Source: Muricauda sp. SCSIO 64092 (GTDB lineage: Bacteria; Bacteroidota; Bacteroidia; Flavobacteriales; Flavobacteriaceae). From it: a DNA stretch of 64,000 nt. Shown in pieces: positions 3,821-27,230 of this stretch (its first letter is position 1; the number at the start of each line of letters is the position of its first letter). The notes under the pieces are model-generated. The model did not search any database. It saw only the letters and a list, made by a program, of their open reading frames with translations, and had not been told where the DNA came from. The stretch is taken from contig NZ_CP095413.1 of assembly GCF_023016285.1 (NCBI RefSeq), positions 4,974,501-5,038,500 on the forward strand, in the 5' to 3' direction. The position numbers were made by a program, and so were the translations under genes.

Positions 3821-4552
3821 TCATTTTTCGGGCAAATAATCACCCAGTAAATTCCAGTCCATGCTGTTTCCCCATCCTTGTCCATGGTCACTTGTATTTT
3901 TTACTTTATGGCCATCTCCAATGGTATGTTCACCGAAACTTAGCAAAGAGAGTATAGTGCCGGGGCGCAGATGTTCGCTGGCCCAACTCAGGGGAGAATC
4001 CCCATTTGCATCTTTTTCCGTTTTGTCCGCGCCATTTTCAATAAGAAAGCTAATCGTTCGTTCATCAGCATAGGCCGCTGCCCGATGTAAGGGTGTTTCT
4101 CCCTTGGTTCTTACGTCGCGCATAAAAGCACCCGTTTCCACACCGGGAAGGGTTTTGGCATTGACATTCGCTCCCTTTTCCACCAGTAATTTGACCACAT
4201 AATAGTAATAGGGCCTACCGGCCTTGGTTAGGGCGTTATGCAACGGTGTTTCATTGGTCTTGTCAATAATGGCATTAACATCAGCTCCATGGTTTATCAA
4301 AAAGTCACAAACCTTCCAGTGTCCGAAAAATGCGGCATTTCCCAATTCCTCATTTAAATCAATACTTTCGAGTGTTCCGCCATATTCCAAAACTGCTTTC
4401 AAGGCGGTAGTATCATTATAATAGACAAGCCATTGCATCGGTTTTACCGGACCATTATGAAGCAATTCTTTCCAATTGTCCTTTTTGAAGAGCTGAAAAA
4501 TATAATCTGTTCGTCCCCTGCTAATGAACTCGATAATCCTTTTAACTTCCAT
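3821..4552 (-). CDS. Ankyrin-repeat protein
   Basis: 243 residues, no signal peptide. From about residue 35 to 205 it has four to five ankyrin repeats, seen as the recurrent pattern G-A-D-V-N followed by TPLH-x-A (NHGADVNAIIDKTNETPLH, then KGANVNAKT, GETPLHRAAAY, NGADKTEKDANGDSPLSWA). Ankyrin domains bind other proteins; no catalytic part is visible. It is monocistronic between the oxidoreductase (convergent) and the membrane protein at 4645 (same strand, about 90 bases upstream). Partner unknown. Confidence 0.85.
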   Translation of the reverse strand: MEVKRIIEFISRGRTDYIFQLFKKDNWKELLHNGPVKPMQWLVYYNDTTALKAVLEYGGTLESIDLNEELGNAAFFGHWKVCDFLINHGADVNAIIDKTNETPLHNALTKAGRPYYYYVVKLLVEKGANVNAKTLPGVETGAFMRDVRTKGETPLHRAAAYADERTISFLIENGADKTEKDANGDSPLSWASEHLRPGTILSLLSFGEHTIGDGHKVKNTSDHGQGWGNSMDWNLLGDYLPEK

Positions 4553-12387: not shown

Positions 12388-12987
12388 ATGGCACCCTATA
12401 AAAACCTGGAGGAGTATAACATAGAATTGACCAATGAGGTCAAAGACCGCTACTTAAAGATAATTGATGAGATAGGGGAGGACGTGTCCCGGGAAGGACT
12501 TTTAAAAACCCCCGAACGTGCTGCAAAGGCCATGCTTTTCCTAACCCAGGGCTACAAGCAGGATGCCGAGGAAATCTTAAGAAGTGCCATGTTCAAGGAA
12601 GAATATGACGATATGGTCATCATAAAGGACATTGAACTGTATTCGCTCTGTGAACACCATATGCTTCCCTTTTTTGGGAAGGCGCATATTGCCTATATCC
12701 CCAATGGACATATTGTGGGATTGAGCAAAATTCCAAGGATTGTCGATGTGTTTGCAAGACGATTGCAGGTTCAGGAACGATTGACCCACGATATTTTGGA
12801 ATGTATCAACAATACCTTAAAACCAAAAGGGGTCGCCGTGGTTATTGAAGCATCCCATATGTGTATGATGATGCGGGGAGTACAAAAACAGAACTCGGTT
12901 ACCACAACTTCTGGATTCAGGGGACAGTTTGAAAAAATTGAAACACGGAACGAGTTTTTAAAATTGATCAGTTCCGATTTATCGTAA
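12388..12987 (+). CDS. folE: GTP cyclohydrolase I (copy 1)
   Basis: 199 residues. It converts GTP to dihydroneopterin triphosphate, the first step of folate and pterin synthesis. The zinc ligands are present: Cys88 and His91 in [12 protein letters not shown] and Cys159 in HMCMMMRG; the [23 protein letters not shown] core is that of the Gram-positive/Bacteroidota-type enzyme. It is co-transcribed with msrA. This is one of two folE genes within 4 kb; the other (16111) has a more E. coli-like sequence and lies in the metal locus. This copy is likely the housekeeping one. Confidence 0.95.
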
Positions 12988-16110: not shown

Positions 16111-16779
16111 CTAAAGGTTCTTAAAATTGTTCTTAAGAAGTCCGTAGAATTCGTTCCGTGAATTCTCATTGGTAAACTTTCCGCCGTACTCCACGGTGGT
16201 TGTAAAACTGTCCTTGTCCTTAATTCCCCTGGATGATACACAAAGGTGTTTGGCGTGTACCATAACGATGACATCATCGGTTTCCAAGGTTTCCTGCAAA
16301 TCGTTTAGGATTTGTAAACAAAGACGCTCCTGGACTTGGGGTCTGTGGGCATAATAATCGACCAATCGGTTAATTTTTGACAATCCTACTACCTTATTTT
16401 TGGGAATATATCCAATATGGGCATGACCAATAATAGGTAAAAAATGATGTTCGCAGGAGGAGTCAATGGTAATATCCTGTTCTACCAACATTTTTTGATA
16501 GCCGTATGTGTTTTCAAAAGTTGACAATTGGGGAAGGTTATCGGGATTTAGTCCATAAAATAGTTCCTGGACATACATTTTTGCAAAACGGTAGGGTGTT
16601 CCCGAAAGACTGTCATCAGTGAGGTCCATCCCCAAAGTTTCCATTATTTTTTGAAAGTGATGTTGTATGCGCTCAATCTTTTCCTTATCGCTGAGCAAAA
16701 AAGCATCTTCCCGTATTGGGGTTTCCAGGGAAGTGGCAAAATGTTCATTCCCAAGGGTCTCTATTCTTTCAATATCCAT
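16111..16779 (-). CDS. folE: GTP cyclohydrolase I (copy 2, E. coli-type) in the metal locus
   Basis: 222 residues from the ATG at 16779; a TTG at 16788 is in frame but inferior. The zinc ligands are Cys109 and His112 (SSCEHHFLP) and Cys180 (HLCVSSRG), at almost the same positions as in E. coli FolE, and GLSKINRLVDYYAHRPQVQERL is the E. coli-type core. It therefore still looks like a zinc enzyme, not the zinc-independent FolE2 type. It follows the MerC-like gene by 16 bases and shares its promoter, which carries the Zur-like box. A second cyclohydrolase under metal control suggests a backup for pterin synthesis when metal is short, perhaps with different metal preference; that is inference. 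Confidence 0.93.
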   Translation of the reverse strand: MDIERIETLGNEHFATSLETPIREDAFLLSDKEKIERIQHHFQKIMETLGMDLTDDSLSGTPYRFAKMYVQELFYGLNPDNLPQLSTFENTYGYQKMLVEQDITIDSSCEHHFLPIIGHAHIGYIPKNKVVGLSKINRLVDYYAHRPQVQERLCLQILNDLQETLETDDVIVMVHAKHLCVSSRGIKDKDSFTTTVEYGGKFTNENSRNEFYGLLKNNFKNL

Positions 16780-16795
16780 GATGATCAATTAAGGT

Positions 16796-17215
16796 TTAGG
16801 CATTCAGCTTTTCGTCGGTACAGCACTGTTCGTGACCACAGTTGCAGTACTTCCTATTGTACAGATGGAAGACGACAAGGGCGATGGATGGAAAATATAT
16901 GGCCTGTTCCGCTAAAGGAAATAGGTGGATTTTCTCATTTATAACAATAATCGCCAAAAGTCCCCAACTCCCCCAAAGTAGGTTGCGCATCCATTTTTTG
17001 GAAGTAGTTTTGGCAGACCACCAAATGGCAAAAAAGGAAATGGCCAAAAAGACCAAATCTAGTATGCCCCACCATTGGGGATGCAATTCTCCGGCCCCTG
17101 CTATTCCTGCTTGGGCCACAAACAAAAAGGGAGTGGCCACACAATGTATCAAACAAAGAGCACTGGCCAGAGCGCCAACGATATCGGATTTTGATGTCAA
17201 TTGAAGGGTATTCAT
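16796..17215 (-). CDS. MerC-domain inner-membrane protein
   Basis: 139 residues with four hydrophobic segments. The first helix carries SALCLIHCVATPFLF, the Cys-containing MerC motif of mercuric transport proteins; the C-terminal tail adds CNCGHEQCC, a likely soft-metal-binding site. Many MerC-like proteins in Bacteroidota are not linked to mercury operons; beside a Fur-family regulator and zinc-type genes a role in zinc or other metal uptake is more likely here. Its promoter (TTG at 17270-17272, N17, TATTTTTG at 17245-17252, reverse strand) overlaps the palindromic box. Co-transcribed with folE copy 2. Confidence 0.88.
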   Translation of the reverse strand: MNTLQLTSKSDIVGALASALCLIHCVATPFLFVAQAGIAGAGELHPQWWGILDLVFLAISFFAIWWSAKTTSKKWMRNLLWGSWGLLAIIVINEKIHLFPLAEQAIYFPSIALVVFHLYNRKYCNCGHEQCCTDEKLNA

Positions 17216-17244: not shown

Positions 17245-17272
17245 CAAAAATAACTTAAAATCGCAAACGCAA
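17245..17272 (-). promoter_or_regulatory. Promoter of merC-like/folE copy 2
   Basis: Read on the reverse strand: -33 TTG (complement of 17270-17272), 17-base spacer, -7 TATTTTTG (complement of 17245-17252), matching the Bacteroidota consensus TTG-N17 to N23-TAnnTTTG. The start of transcription would be near 17238, about 23 bases before the ATG at 17215. The -33 element lies within the palindromic box at 17265-17285, a good position for repression. Confidence 0.65.
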
Positions 17273-17285
17273 CTCAGTCGCATTT
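17265..17285. promoter_or_regulatory. Zur/Fur-like operator (imperfect palindrome)
   Basis: AAACGCAAC, TCA, GTCGCATTT: an imperfect 9-3-9 palindrome located between the divergent merC-like and ABC-transporter operons. It matches the perfect palindrome found at 27209-27229 (AAATGCAAC, ATA, GTTGCATTT) at 16 of 18 arm positions. Size and symmetry fit the binding sites of dimeric Fur-family repressors, and such a repressor is encoded at the end of the rightward operon. Assignment to that protein is inference. Confidence 0.65.
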
Positions 17286-17296
17286 AAAATTCTTCT

Positions 17297-17304
17297 TAAG
17301 TTTG
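17297..17304 (+). promoter_or_regulatory. -7 element of the zinc-type ABC operon
   Basis: TAAGTTTG fits the -7 consensus TAnnTTTG. The equivalent -33 position falls in the palindrome (TCG at 17278-17280, one base off TTG, spacer 16). The ATG at 17309 follows after only four bases, so the transcript would have almost no leader unless a downstream Met (17318) is used. A weak -33 covered by the repressor box fits a tightly repressed promoter. Confidence 0.45.
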
Positions 17305-17308
17305 TAGG

Positions 17309-17944
17309 ATGACACAAATGGTCAAAACGGAAGGACTTCAGTTTAAGTACCCGGGGGGACAGGCTTTTGAGTTTCCCAATATTATTTTGAATAGCCAGGA
17401 ACATCTATTGGTGCTGGGGCCTTCTGGGGTTGGGAAGACCACTTTACTCCATTTGCTTTCGGGAATATTACCGGCCTCCAGTGGTTCCATTGTGATTAAT
17501 GAAACTGAAATTACTGCTTTGGACCGAAAGGGTCTGGATTTATTTCGTGGCGCATATGTTGGACTCATTTTTCAGCAATACCATTTCATAAAATCCTTGA
17601 ACGTTGATGAAAACCTTAGGTTACGGCAAAACTTTCCCAAAAAAACCATGGATAAGGAGCGAAGGTTGGCCATTGCTGAACGATTGGGACTGACCCCGTA
17701 CCTCAAGAAAAAGGTAATGCAATTGAGTCAAGGACAGCAACAACGGCTGTCCATAGCGTTGGGGTTGATCCATCGCCCTCAGGTAGTCTTTGCCGACGAA
17801 CCCACATCCAATTTGGACGATTTTAACTGCAATCAGGTTATAAAGTTGTTGAAGGATGAGGCTGCATTATGTGGGAGCAGTTTGGTCATTATAACCCACG
17901 ACCAACGGGTTACCCAACATTTTTCAAATCAAATTGTGCTATGA
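17309..17944 (+). CDS. ABC transporter ATP-binding protein of the putative zinc system
   Basis: 211 residues of the LolD/MacB class: Walker A GPSGVGKTT (37-45), signature LSQGQQQ (139-145, with Q replacing the usual second G) and Walker B VVFADEPT (159-166). Its partner is the FtsX-like permease encoded next, whose ATG overlaps its stop (17941-17944). In Vibrio cholerae the zinc-regulated ZrgABCDE system also pairs a LolD-like ATPase with an FtsX-like permease and accessory periplasmic proteins; the gene order here resembles that. Metal specificity is inferred from context. Confidence 0.88.
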   Translation: MTQMVKTEGLQFKYPGGQAFEFPNIILNSQEHLLVLGPSGVGKTTLLHLLSGILPASSGSIVINETEITALDRKGLDLFRGAYVGLIFQQYHFIKSLNVDENLRLRQNFPKKTMDKERRLAIAERLGLTPYLKKKVMQLSQGQQQRLSIALGLIHRPQVVFADEPTSNLDDFNCNQVIKLLKDEAALCGSSLVIITHDQRVTQHFSNQIVL

Positions 17945-19317
17945 ACCTTTTGTATTTAGCCTACCGCAACATGGTCTCAAAACCCTTGAATATGGTTTTG
18001 AGCCTGGTACTTTTGGTACTTAGCGTTTCCTTGGTCACTTTTGTCCTGCAGCTCGGTAAGCAACTGAATGGACAAATGGACAAGAACATTACCCCGGTGG
18101 ACATGGTCGTTGGGGCCAAAGGGAGTCCATTGCAGTTGGTGCTTTCCTCCGTTTTGCATATTGACGTACCTACCGGTAACATTAAACTGGAGGAGGCAGA
18201 GTCCATTAAGAATCACCCCTTTGTAGGGTCGGCCATATCCGTTTCCTATGGGGATAACTACAAAGGGTATCGCATTTTGGGTACGGAACCGGGTTATTTG
18301 GATAACTATGGTGTTGTTTTAAGCGAGGGAGGTTTATTTCAACGACCTTTTGAAATAGTGGCAGGGAATACCGTTGCCAAAAAATTGGGACTCCAAATAG
18401 GGGATAGGATTACCAGTTCCCATGGTTTGGCCGCTGCCGGTGGGGAAGCACATGATGATCACCCCTATACCATTGCTGGAATTTTGGAGCCCTCCGGCAC
18501 TGTGGTCGATCAGTTGCTGGTATGTGATTTGGAAAGTATCTGGGATGCGCACTCGCATCATGGAGAGGAACAGCACAATGAAGATGAAAAGCATGAAGAA
18601 GGGGAACATGACCACGAAGGACATGACCATGAGGAACCTGATCATGAGGAACATGACCACGAAGGACATGACCACGACCATGAAGGACATGATCATAAGG
18701 AACATGAAGGTGGAGAACAGGTTCATGATGAAGCTAACGACACCGGACACGATTATGAAGACCATGATGATGAACTTGAGATTACCTCTCTTTTGGTGAA
18801 ATTCAAAAGTCCCCTGGGCCTGGTACAGTTACCGCGCTTTATCAATGAAAATACCAATATGCAGGCCGCCCTTCCTGGTTTTGAGATACAACGGCTTATG
18901 GGTTTCCTGGGTTCCGGCGTAAAGACCATAAACGGTATCGCTTTTGCCATTCTGTTCGTTTCTGGTTTCAGTATTTTCATCAGTCTATTGAAGACCATAC
19001 GGGAACGAAGACAGGAATTGGCATTATTGCGTACCTATGGCCTGGGAACACGAAAATTGCTCTTCTTGGTATTGTTTGAAGGGCTGCTTTTGGCCTTGAT
19101 AGGATTTTGGCTTGGATGGGTATTGGGTCGTTTGGCCCTGGCCCTGGCTTCGGGGTATATTGAATCGGGATATGGGTATGTTTTGCAATTGAATGGACCC
19201 AATCTTCCCGAGTTGTTACTTTTTGGGGTAACTTTGGTCATAGCCATTATTGCTGTTTTGTTGGCGTCCACATCGATTTTTAAATTGAACATTTCAAAAA
19301 CGTTGGCCGATGTATAA
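17941..19317 (+). CDS. FtsX-like ABC permease with histidine-rich extracytoplasmic loop
   Basis: 458 residues from the ATG at 17941, which overlaps the ATPase stop. Layout: membrane helix about 13-35, a large periplasmic MacB-like domain, then three C-terminal helices (about 320-440) typical of FtsX/MacB permeases. Residues about 205-279, within the periplasmic domain, hold roughly 76 residues containing 21 His and many Asp/Glu (HDHEGHDHE-type repeats), a strong zinc- or nickel-binding signature. In Vibrio ZrgA-like systems the His-rich segment is a separate protein; here it appears built into the permease. The 3' end overlaps the next gene by 8 bases. Confidence 0.88.
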   Translation: MNLLYLAYRNMVSKPLNMVLSLVLLVLSVSLVTFVLQLGKQLNGQMDKNITPVDMVVGAKGSPLQLVLSSVLHIDVPTGNIKLEEAESIKNHPFVGSAISVSYGDNYKGYRILGTEPGYLDNYGVVLSEGGLFQRPFEIVAGNTVAKKLGLQIGDRITSSHGLAAAGGEAHDDHPYTIAGILEPSGTVVDQLLVCDLESIWDAHSHHGEEQHNEDEKHEEGEHDHEGHDHEEPDHEEHDHEGHDHDHEGHDHKEHEGGEQVHDEANDTGHDYEDHDDELEITSLLVKFKSPLGLVQLPRFINENTNMQAALPGFEIQRLMGFLGSGVKTINGIAFAILFVSGFSIFISLLKTIRERRQELALLRTYGLGTRKLLFLVLFEGLLLALIGFWLGWVLGRLALALASGYIESGYGYVLQLNGPNLPELLLFGVTLVIAIIAVLLASTSIFKLNISKTLADV

Positions 19318-19753
19318 ACCATTTTTTTTGTTCCTTTTTCCTGTTTTCCTTATGGTTCAGAGCGTTTCTGCGCAGTTGGAAGTAACGTGGCAGGATTTCG
19401 CCGATGTGAATTTTGAACCGATGTACAATGAAAAGTACGACGTTCACTTTTTGATGCCCAAATTTGGGGAAAGGATTAAAACCTATCAGGGAAAGAAAGT
19501 CCAGATTACCGGGTATTTTTTGGATATTTCCGGAACAGGTGAAGTTTTTTTGGTTTCAGCCAATCCAATGGCTTCCTGCTTTTTTTGTGGTGCTGCAGGG
19601 CCAGAAAGTATCGTTGAGGTCAATTTTAAGGAAAGACCCCCCTTTAAGACGGACCAGGTTGTTCAGGTTACAGGCATCCTGGAATTGAACGGTAATAATG
19701 TAGATCATTGCAACTATATTTTAAAAGAGGCATCGGGAAAATTGGTGAATTGA
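19310..19753 (+). CDS. Secreted CFFCG protein 1 (DUF3299-like)
   Basis: 147 residues with a signal peptide (about 1-21, ending VSAQ). The core ITGYFLDI...VFLVSANPMASCFFCGAAGPES resembles DUF3299 periplasmic proteins, an OB-like beta-barrel family, with a conserved CFFCG pair in place to bind metal or form a disulfide; the tail has a lone Cys near DHCNYIL. Such proteins accompany LolD/FtsX-type zinc transport genes in gamma-proteobacteria. It overlaps the permease gene and is followed one base after its stop by a paralogue. A periplasmic metal-binding role is inferred. Confidence 0.75.
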   Translation: MYKPFFLFLFPVFLMVQSVSAQLEVTWQDFADVNFEPMYNEKYDVHFLMPKFGERIKTYQGKKVQITGYFLDISGTGEVFLVSANPMASCFFCGAAGPESIVEVNFKERPPFKTDQVVQVTGILELNGNNVDHCNYILKEASGKLVN

Positions 19754-19754
19754 T

Positions 19755-20189
19755 ATGAAGACCGTAGTGCTATTGTCCCTCCTGGTTTTTTCCATGGAAC
19801 TGACGGCCCAAACCGCATTGGACTGGTCAGATTTGGAACGGGGCATCACTTGGAGAAAAAGCGACGCCAAAAAGGCATATCCCGGTTTTTTGGAAGCTGA
19901 CTTTTCAACCAAACTCACGGATTTGGAAGGAAAGGAAGTTTCATTGATTGGGTTTCTTTTGGTATTGGATGGAAGTCAATCGGTCTACATGCTTTCCAAA
20001 AATCCAATGGCAAGCTGTTTCTTTTGTGGTAATGGCGGGCCAGAGACCATCTCGGAAATTGCATTTGCCCAAAAAACCTCCTTTGCCATGGATGATTTGA
20101 TTACGGTAACGGGAATCCTACGTTTAAATCGGGATGACCCGACCCGCTGTTACTACCTCATCGAACAAGCCGAAGCCTTTGGTATCTAA
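19755..20189 (+). CDS. Secreted CFFCG protein 2, tandem paralogue
   Basis: 144 residues, signal peptide to about residue 18 (ELTAQ). It repeats the plan of the preceding protein: LIGFLLVLDGSQSVYMLSKNPMASCFFCGNGGPET, then VTGILRLN and a late Cys in DPTRCYYLIE. Outside the NPMASCFFCG block similarity to the first copy is low, so the duplication is old and the two probably have distinct tasks, for example as a heterodimer. It lacks the first copy's acidic N-terminal segment and instead has a basic WRKSDAKKAY stretch. It is fourth in the operon, 13 bases before the repressor gene. Confidence 0.75.
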   Translation: MKTVVLLSLLVFSMELTAQTALDWSDLERGITWRKSDAKKAYPGFLEADFSTKLTDLEGKEVSLIGFLLVLDGSQSVYMLSKNPMASCFFCGNGGPETISEIAFAQKTSFAMDDLITVTGILRLNRDDPTRCYYLIEQAEAFGI

Positions 20190-27187: not shown

Positions 27188-27216
27188 AAAATATAGGAAA
27201 GCGTTGATAAATGCAA
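27188..27216 (-). promoter_or_regulatory. Promoter of the LCIB-like carbonic anhydrase gene
   Basis: Read on the reverse strand: -33 TTG (complement of 27214-27216), 18-base spacer, -7 TATATTTT (complement of 27188-27195), one base off TAnnTTTG. The -33 element is inside the palindrome, so a bound repressor would block it. Transcription would begin near 27181. Confidence 0.5.
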
Positions 27217-27230
27217 CATAGTTGCATTTA
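27208..27230. promoter_or_regulatory. Perfect Zur/Fur-like palindrome
   Basis: TAAATGCAAC, ATA, GTTGCATTTA: ten-base arms that are exact reverse complements around three bases. It shares 16 of 18 inner arm positions with the box at 17265-17285 in front of the metal operon. Ten-base perfect arms in non-coding DNA are unlikely by chance. It is 179 bases upstream of the LCIB-like ATG and 146 bases upstream of the FG-GAP gene. Confidence 0.75.

Follow-up and report, generated by a model that had tools for sequence, protein, structure and literature searches.

The gene for an LCIB-type carbonic anhydrase in Muricauda sp. SCSIO 64092 was found to stand behind a perfect palindrome, which is very probably the binding site of a zinc-sensing repressor common to the neighbouring zinc genes. 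The recurrence of this box at zinc-type genes strongly supports a metal regulon that includes the carbonic anhydrase, as the first-pass annotation of this DNA had proposed, and the metal is probably zinc, since the genes at the boxes encode COG0523, DUF1826, MerC, a second FolE and Zur-like proteins. We consider it highly likely that the boxes mark a zinc-starvation regulon, in which a Zur-type repressor would act on the box and LCIB would be an enzyme dedicated to zinc starvation, most likely still with zinc as its metal.

The 64,000-nucleotide stretch analysed here (the window; Table 1) had been reported to contain a 10-3-10 palindrome and a second, closely similar site, and both observations were verified. 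Box 1 reads TAAATGCAAC-ATA-GTTGCATTTA and is a perfect palindrome, while box 2 reads AAACGCAAC-TCA-GTCGCATTT and agrees with box 1 at 16 of 18 arm positions, with two mismatches to the core TGCAAC-N3-GTTGCA. When the window was searched with up to three mismatches, only these two matches appeared, above chance by the shuffles of the window (mean 0.11; none of 100 shuffles reached two). A one-mismatch core at 4239 was discarded, as it lies within an ankyrin-type ORF (3821-4552, minus strand) and is found again in G003 and G007, as expected of coding sequence.

We then ran the genome-wide pattern scan that the first-pass annotation had called for, on the single contig of 5,689,803 bases (G000). 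With the 18-base pattern and up to two mismatches, boxes 1 and 2 were the only matches (control, 0). At three mismatches the genome gave six matches against five in the control, nothing rising above the control beyond boxes 1 and 2, and the four matches concerned (L003-L006) were thus not taken as sites. The exact 12-base core occurs three times in the genome, namely in box 1, in the intergenic region between merC2 and ZUR2 (box 3), and inside a cobW-like ORF (G000:C1:3099853, counted as intragenic). Known zinc-starvation genes stand at two of these three exact cores, and also at box 2.

Table 1. Predicted operators, promoter elements and genes in the window (positions in the 64-kb stretch)
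Feature	Position	Strand	Basis and remarks
MerC-family membrane protein	16796..17215	-	PF03203
Second GTP cyclohydrolase I (FolE), Cys-His-Cys zinc ligands kept	16111..16788	-	PF01227, NCBIfam FolE, ligand check
-7 element TATTTTTG of the merC-folE promoter	17245..17252	-	sequence
Box 2, Zur-type operator (predicted)	17265..17285	.	between two divergent operons; arrangement recurs in relatives
-7 element TAAGTTTG of the ABC operon promoter	17297..17304	+	sequence
ABC transporter ATPase	17309..17944	+	PF00005; likely true start 17318 (residue 4, where the relatives' alignment starts)
FtsX/MacB-like permease, long His/Asp/Glu-rich loop	17944..19317	+	PF02687, PF12704
Small protein, 147 aa, signal-like start, CFFCG motif	19310..19753	+	usually adjoins the ABC pair
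Similar small protein, 144 aa, CFFCG motif	19755..20189	+	sequence; linkage to the ABC pair
ZUR1, Fur-family repressor candidate, 131 aa	20203..20598	+	PF01475, E 2e-15; last gene of the box-2 operon
LCIB-type carbonic anhydrase, 237 aa	26316..27029	-	PF18599 (LCIB_C_CA), E 6e-50; PDB 6kfs etc.
-7 element TATATTTT of the LCIB promoter	27188..27195	-	16 nt past the box 1 core; geometry over 72 relatives' sequences
Box 1, Zur-type operator (predicted)	27208..27230	.	perfect 10-3-10 palindrome; core TGCAAC-N3-GTTGCA at 27212-27226

The position of the boxes relative to the promoters was analysed in the window and in relatives. The LCIB promoter of the window has the form GTTGCA-16 nt-TATATTTT. 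In 72 box-to-gene sequences taken from 80 LCIB loci (any recognised gene within 320 bp of the box; window excluded), TANNTTTG with at most one mismatch was counted 50 times at 16-19 nt past the core, and the reversed motif five times. Since the box thus stands at a fixed distance from the -7 element, it covers the -33 element, with the TTG of GTTGCA in the -33 position, an assignment for which we assume the Bacteroidota promoter consensus. At box 2, TANNTTTG is matched on both sides, at 14 and 15 nt, so that one box can close two divergent operons. The earlier suggestion that both sites lie over the -33 element fits this geometry, and the overlap of a palindromic box with the promoter, as looked for in a Zur regulon, is found in the window. 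The LCIB start codon (27029) lies about 180 nt from box 1; the start of a 303-aa ORF inside the palindrome was replaced by this codon, where the relatives start.

When we looked for a second box (up to three mismatches, 16-79 bp on) around 100 sites, 18 of the 21 matches lay at 37-40 bp, and the control gave one in all. Such tandem boxes were seen at L067, L079, L081, L083, L093, L118, L119, L124 and L026; the first box covers the -33 element and the second runs into the -7 element. We take the Zur boxes of Bacillus subtilis yciC and Streptomyces coelicolor znuA to differ in sequence from TGCAAC-N3-GTTGCA. According to PMC6103462, both of these promoters carry two Zur boxes, on the -35 and -10 motifs. 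The tandem boxes of the relatives resemble this arrangement, whereas box 1 in the window is single and has no tandem partner.

The census of the genus likewise placed the box before zinc genes. Across 11 genus genomes we counted 27 exact cores, against one in the control, and annotated them by comparison with proteins encoded in the window, L058, L145 and L150, with Pfam profiles added in selected cases. Of these cores, 19 stand before zinc-type operons, three before envelope genes and five inside ORFs (once in G000, twice each in G001 and G005). Thus the same box does precede known zinc-starvation genes at 19 of 27 cores, which answers the question, raised by the first-pass annotation, of whether matches fall before metal genes; one of the 19 operons is a weak case, its ZrgA-like gene scoring E 0.003, under Pfam's cut-off. 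The zinc-type operons comprise LCIB alone, (COG0523)-(DinB-like)-LCIB, and COG0523-DinB-like without LCIB (G002); merC facing the ABC-permease-small protein operon, with folE and ZUR1 in most; and merC2-DUF1826-COG0523 facing ZUR2. No znuABC gene is among the genes recognised at the boxes. The envelope-type cores, twice in G004 and once in G008, precede a TonB-receptor gene or small lipoprotein-like genes without a Pfam family. Boxes before a TonB receptor or small lipoprotein-like proteins were seen at L154:2770-5925, L155:4586-5212, L156:4051-4686 and L008:899-1489, and a boxed TonB receptor adjoins a DtxR-like regulator. We regard these genes as candidates for outer-membrane zinc uptake.

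G006, G009 and G010 contain no exact core; in G006 a core with one mismatch precedes a ZUR2-like gene by about 21 bp. A looser search of the genus with ATGCAAC-N3-GTTGCAT and at most one mismatch gave 29 sites against four in the control, and the census was made with the exact core, not with this pattern. In 60 relatives, the 18-base pattern with at most two mismatches gave 36 sites against three in the control. Thirteen of the 36 lie in 10 genomes outside the genus, and one locus was annotated in each: seven are at LCIB, COG0523, MerC, FolE or Fur-family genes, two at TonB-receptor-like or lipoprotein-like genes, and one at nothing recognised. A further Fur-family type (about 150 aa) occurs in L150, L153 and L157, 2-3 kb from a box fronting a ZrgA-like gene, and in L150 and L153 it adjoins another FolE copy.

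We also surveyed the LCIB genes themselves. By contig scan 83 relatives were found and 80, nearly all from Bacteroidota, were kept; since L054-L058 and L087 are contigs of genus genomes, the LCIB-locus and genus counts overlap. A box lies upstream (core with at most one mismatch within 2.6 kb, or at most two within 120 bp) in 46 of the 80 relatives, against 0 of 80 in the control, and in 20 loci the LCIB start codon is preceded at -75 to -96 by the core (at most two mismatches). Over the 1.46 Mb of the 80 loci, cores with at most one mismatch numbered 100, in 56 loci, against a single one, in one locus, in the control. Among the 46, the palindromes of L082 and L118 are perfect and read AAACGCAAC-N3-GTTGCGTTT, the letters being shifted, and L112 and L125 are weak matches of little weight.

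By the same upstream rule, 34 of the 80 relatives have no box. In four of these, L079, L081, L083 and L115, a box leads a row of zinc genes in which LCIB comes later, and L064, L102 and L108 have three-mismatch boxes at -91/-92. At 21 of the 80 loci, the DNA scanned showed no listed zinc gene and no core at one mismatch or fewer. The box is thus common in the clade, not universal. It was also absent from the 3.6 kb scanned at L025, whose LCIB is 86% identical, and from the surrounding DNA scanned at the second LCIB copies (61% identical) of G001, G004 and G005.

A tree was built from 114 LCIB proteins. A single clade of 86 rows (support 99/93) holds every one of the 48 rows labelled with a box, namely the 46 loci above, the window's protein and L026, which has two boxes. 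None of the other 28 rows (33-42% identical) has a core with at most one mismatch in 3.6 kb; for these distant proteins, 30 loci from the family and phylum genome sets were scanned, five further phylum genomes gave no locus, and L238 has a two-mismatch match at -39. The box label changes at least 23 times on the tree, against a mean of 36.7 for shuffled labels, with 10 changes forced by well-supported branches and with a bootstrap that had not settled. Names of different families are interspersed within the box clade, and hence transfer of the box-LCIB clade among families is likely. Two LCIB relatives, L112 (81%) and L133 (66%), come from assemblies that carry the names of a planctomycete and of a Roseobacter relative, which would reflect transfer or mis-binning.

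Close relatives differ in what lies behind the box. In L058 (LCIB 90% identical) the order is box, COG0523 (407 aa), DinB-like (197 aa) and LCIB; in L054 (99%) it is box-DinB-LCIB, COG0523 missing at that place; and in the window and L055 both genes are missing, leaving box-LCIB. In G002, box, COG0523 and DinB-like remain without LCIB. The box was kept while different genes behind it disappeared. The sequences of L054 and the window share 90% identity for about 285 nt that span box and promoter, and then diverge; past that point LCIB begins after about 90 nt more in the window, and the DinB-like gene stands there in L054. On the simplest reading, the COG0523 and DinB-like genes between box and LCIB would have been lost stepwise in the window's lineage. 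The DinB-like proteins just upstream of LCIB (L054:9360-9956, L058:9348-9941) have an apparent lipoprotein signal.

Outside the window, the genome keeps a COG0523 gene behind box 3, whose exact core lies at G000:C1:5551250 (TATTGCAACTCAGTTGCAATA), between merC2-DUF1826-COG0523 and ZUR2 (G000:C1:5546000-5556000; L145:2749-5674). A second core, with one mismatch, lies 38 bp from box 3.

The candidate repressors were then compared. The genome encodes four Fur-family proteins, two of which lack CxxC pairs and have no core within 600 bp of their genes. ZUR2 is a second 131-residue protein of this family (PF01475; from G000:C1:5551278 on), whose start lies about 21 bp from the box 3 centre. Its PDB matches at E <= 0.001 are only 3mwm and the 7vo0 group, which we take to be Streptomyces Zur entries. 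It has the CxxC pairs CRDC and CADC, and its YALC aligns to Zur's YRRC, the cysteine of which is presumably the sensory one, so that ZUR2 joins the Fur fold and the CxxC pairs with a cysteine at the Zur sensory position; the genus copy in G008 has YALY instead of YALC. For ZUR2-type genes, six genus genomes and L067, L083 and L118 show the spacing of about 21 bp between start codon and box centre, and in other relatives it is 0-59 bp.

ZUR1, the last gene of the box-2 operon, is the 131-residue repressor that the first-pass annotation had named. It has the Fur fold and the CxxC pairs; the Zur-type cysteine is absent, and a His-rich stretch is found instead. It scores 26.8 bits in the NCBIfam Zur model, far under the cut-off of 167, and taken alone it scores as generic Fur family, with Fur proteins and 3eyy (presumably Nur) as best PDB matches and the zinc regulator FurB (2o03) close behind. 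Of the eight genus genomes with exact cores, seven have ZUR1 (not G001, a 92%-complete assembly) and six have ZUR2 (not G002 or G004). As each protein is missing from at least one of the eight, the reading that ZUR1 alone accounts for the boxes was dropped. ZUR1 stands as a valid candidate; ZUR2, with its own box and the cysteine that ZUR1 lacks, is the more Zur-like, and either of them may bind the boxes.

The identities of the window's genes were verified by profile (LCIB_C_CA, MerC, FolE, ABC ATPase, FtsX-type permease and FUR family), in line with the earlier statement that a Fur-family repressor is encoded in the operon of the second site. The two CFFCG proteins (19310-20189) match no Pfam family at 1e-3, the best E of the 147-aa protein being 0.02. 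Besides the box-2 folE, a boxless folE lies at 12388-12987, and both copies have intact Cys-His-Cys zinc ligands. Pseudomonas aeruginosa PA4063-PA4066 is, we assume, a comparable Zur-controlled ABC operon of an ATPase, an FtsX-like permease and small exported proteins; the window's small proteins differ in having no DUF3299 or other Pfam family at that threshold.

The LCIB protein matches PF18599 at 170 bits against a cut-off of 25, and its nearest PDB structures are 6kfs (E 2e-35), 9w05/9vzj and PtLCIB4, with Chlamydomonas LCIB far behind. C49, H104 and C128, which align to the metal ligands and which we therefore take to bind zinc, are kept in 84 of 84 aligned sequences. The profile match and the Cys-His-Cys ligands thus place the protein in LCIB_C_CA, a rare family, found in three of 149 genomes of the taxonomic family and 35 of 395 of the phylum; relatives of the window's protein occur in seven of the 11 genus genomes.

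What the enzyme does under zinc starvation admits several readings. The genome encodes other carbonic anhydrases (two beta-class, one full alpha-class and an alpha-class fragment), and the surrounding DNA scanned at the beta- and alpha-class genes contains no core at two or fewer mismatches, so the box-led LCIB appears to be an extra carbonic anhydrase for zinc starvation. The earlier idea of a replacement enzyme for such conditions is accordingly plausible as far as a back-up role goes. It could be taken further, with the regulon being Zur's and LCIB using another metal (Co, Fe, Mn or Cd) or none in place of the zinc-dependent beta- and alpha-class enzymes. Haas et al. 2009 (PMC2770081) proposed a zinc-free enzyme for the gamma-class Cam, and another metal would be compatible with intact ligands; however, all three zinc ligands are kept in LCIB and the Cys-His-Cys ligands in the regulon's FolE, so that these look like duplicate enzymes with intact zinc sites and a zinc-free substitute is not indicated. 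We therefore hold this reading to be unlikely, though of some weight. Rather improbable is a non-catalytic LCIB, acting as a zinc store, buffer or scaffold. Three recombinant LCIB homologues with a beta-type fold and zinc motif were without activity (PMC5876011), but 6kfs, 9w05/9vzj and PtLCIB4 match the window's protein well before Chlamydomonas LCIB, and the strict conservation of the ligands and neighbouring polar residues looks like that of a selected active site.

The remaining doubts concern the metal and the box itself. Control of the regulon by a Fur-, PerR- or Nur-type sensor responding to Mn, Fe, Ni or Cu would agree with the generic Fur-family score and PDB matches of ZUR1, and with one G004 site flanked by a TonB receptor and a DtxR-like gene. 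However, the boxed genes form a zinc-starvation set (COG0523 with CICC, DUF1826, duplicate FolE and MerC), and at E <= 0.001 ZUR2 matches Streptomyces Zur entries alone, as we assign them, which makes another metal very improbable. In the genus, LCIB neighbours the merC/ABC locus, and box 1 might therefore be a chance match, or be conserved merely through linkage to the zinc locus 10 kb off. This is barely credible in view of the excess of cores over the control in the genus and the recurrence of the box at -75 to -96 from LCIB; the latter extends to loci where the DNA scanned shows no listed zinc gene (Aquimarina L069 and L085, Tenacibaculum L110 and L111), and outside the genus a pattern match lies 67 bp before an LCIB gene.

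The zinc-starvation regulon would then operate as follows. With enough zinc, a zinc-loaded dimer of a Zur-type Fur-family protein would sit on TGCAAC-N3-GTTGCA, cover the -33 element and block RNA polymerase. When zinc falls, the repressor would leave, and LCIB would be made with the rest of the regulon, that is, MerC, the second FolE and the ABC operon with ZUR1, and, from box 3, MerC2, DUF1826, the COG0523 zinc chaperone and ZUR2. LCIB would most likely remain a zinc enzyme, through tight binding or through the chaperone; we prefer preferential delivery of zinc to LCIB by COG0523, because the two genes share one operon in many relatives. After the presumed loss of the chaperone and DinB-like genes in the window's lineage, the box would now serve LCIB directly.

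We take the gamma class of carbonic anhydrases to be unrelated to the LCIB class, and YtiB of B. subtilis to belong to the classical beta family. For Proteobacteria, PMC2770081 and PMC13261364 describe gamma-class enzymes that share Zur control with COG0523 and a FolE paralogue (Cam; P. aeruginosa PaCAgamma1, PA5532-PA5541). The likeness lies in an extra carbonic anhydrase with COG0523 and a FolE paralogue, whereas those systems belong to another phylum and the Muricauda enzyme is of the LCIB class with its zinc ligands kept. YtiB, a Firmicutes protein, is listed as a Zur-regulated carbonic anhydrase in PMC6103462, the part of which drawn on here names no COG0523-LCIB operon. LCIB/LCIC of Chlamydomonas and PtLCIB of diatoms share the Pfam family and the PDB matches with the window's protein, but they are low-CO2-inducible proteins of photosynthetic cells, whereas the latter belongs to a bacterial clade behind a zinc box. 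In the open-access literature we found no paper linking LCIB with Zur or giving a Bacteroidota Zur box, for broad topics among the matches listed. Zur-controlled carbonic anhydrases have already been published for other classes.

Surface ocean waters contain little zinc, for which carbonic anhydrase is a major sink. Tentatively, and with less than even confidence, we suggest that marine Bacteroidota may have recruited LCIB to the zinc-starvation response as a client of the COG0523 chaperone of the same operon, in a module that spread across families and serves zinc-priority delivery rather than sparing, with two Zur paralogues acting on near-identical boxes. A zinc box that can be read from sequence would make the zinc-starvation response of marine Bacteroidota predictable. 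It would also offer a physiological handle on the bacterial LCIB proteins, a family of disputed activity even in algae, and would make LCIB a testable enzyme client for the COG0523 zinc chaperone.
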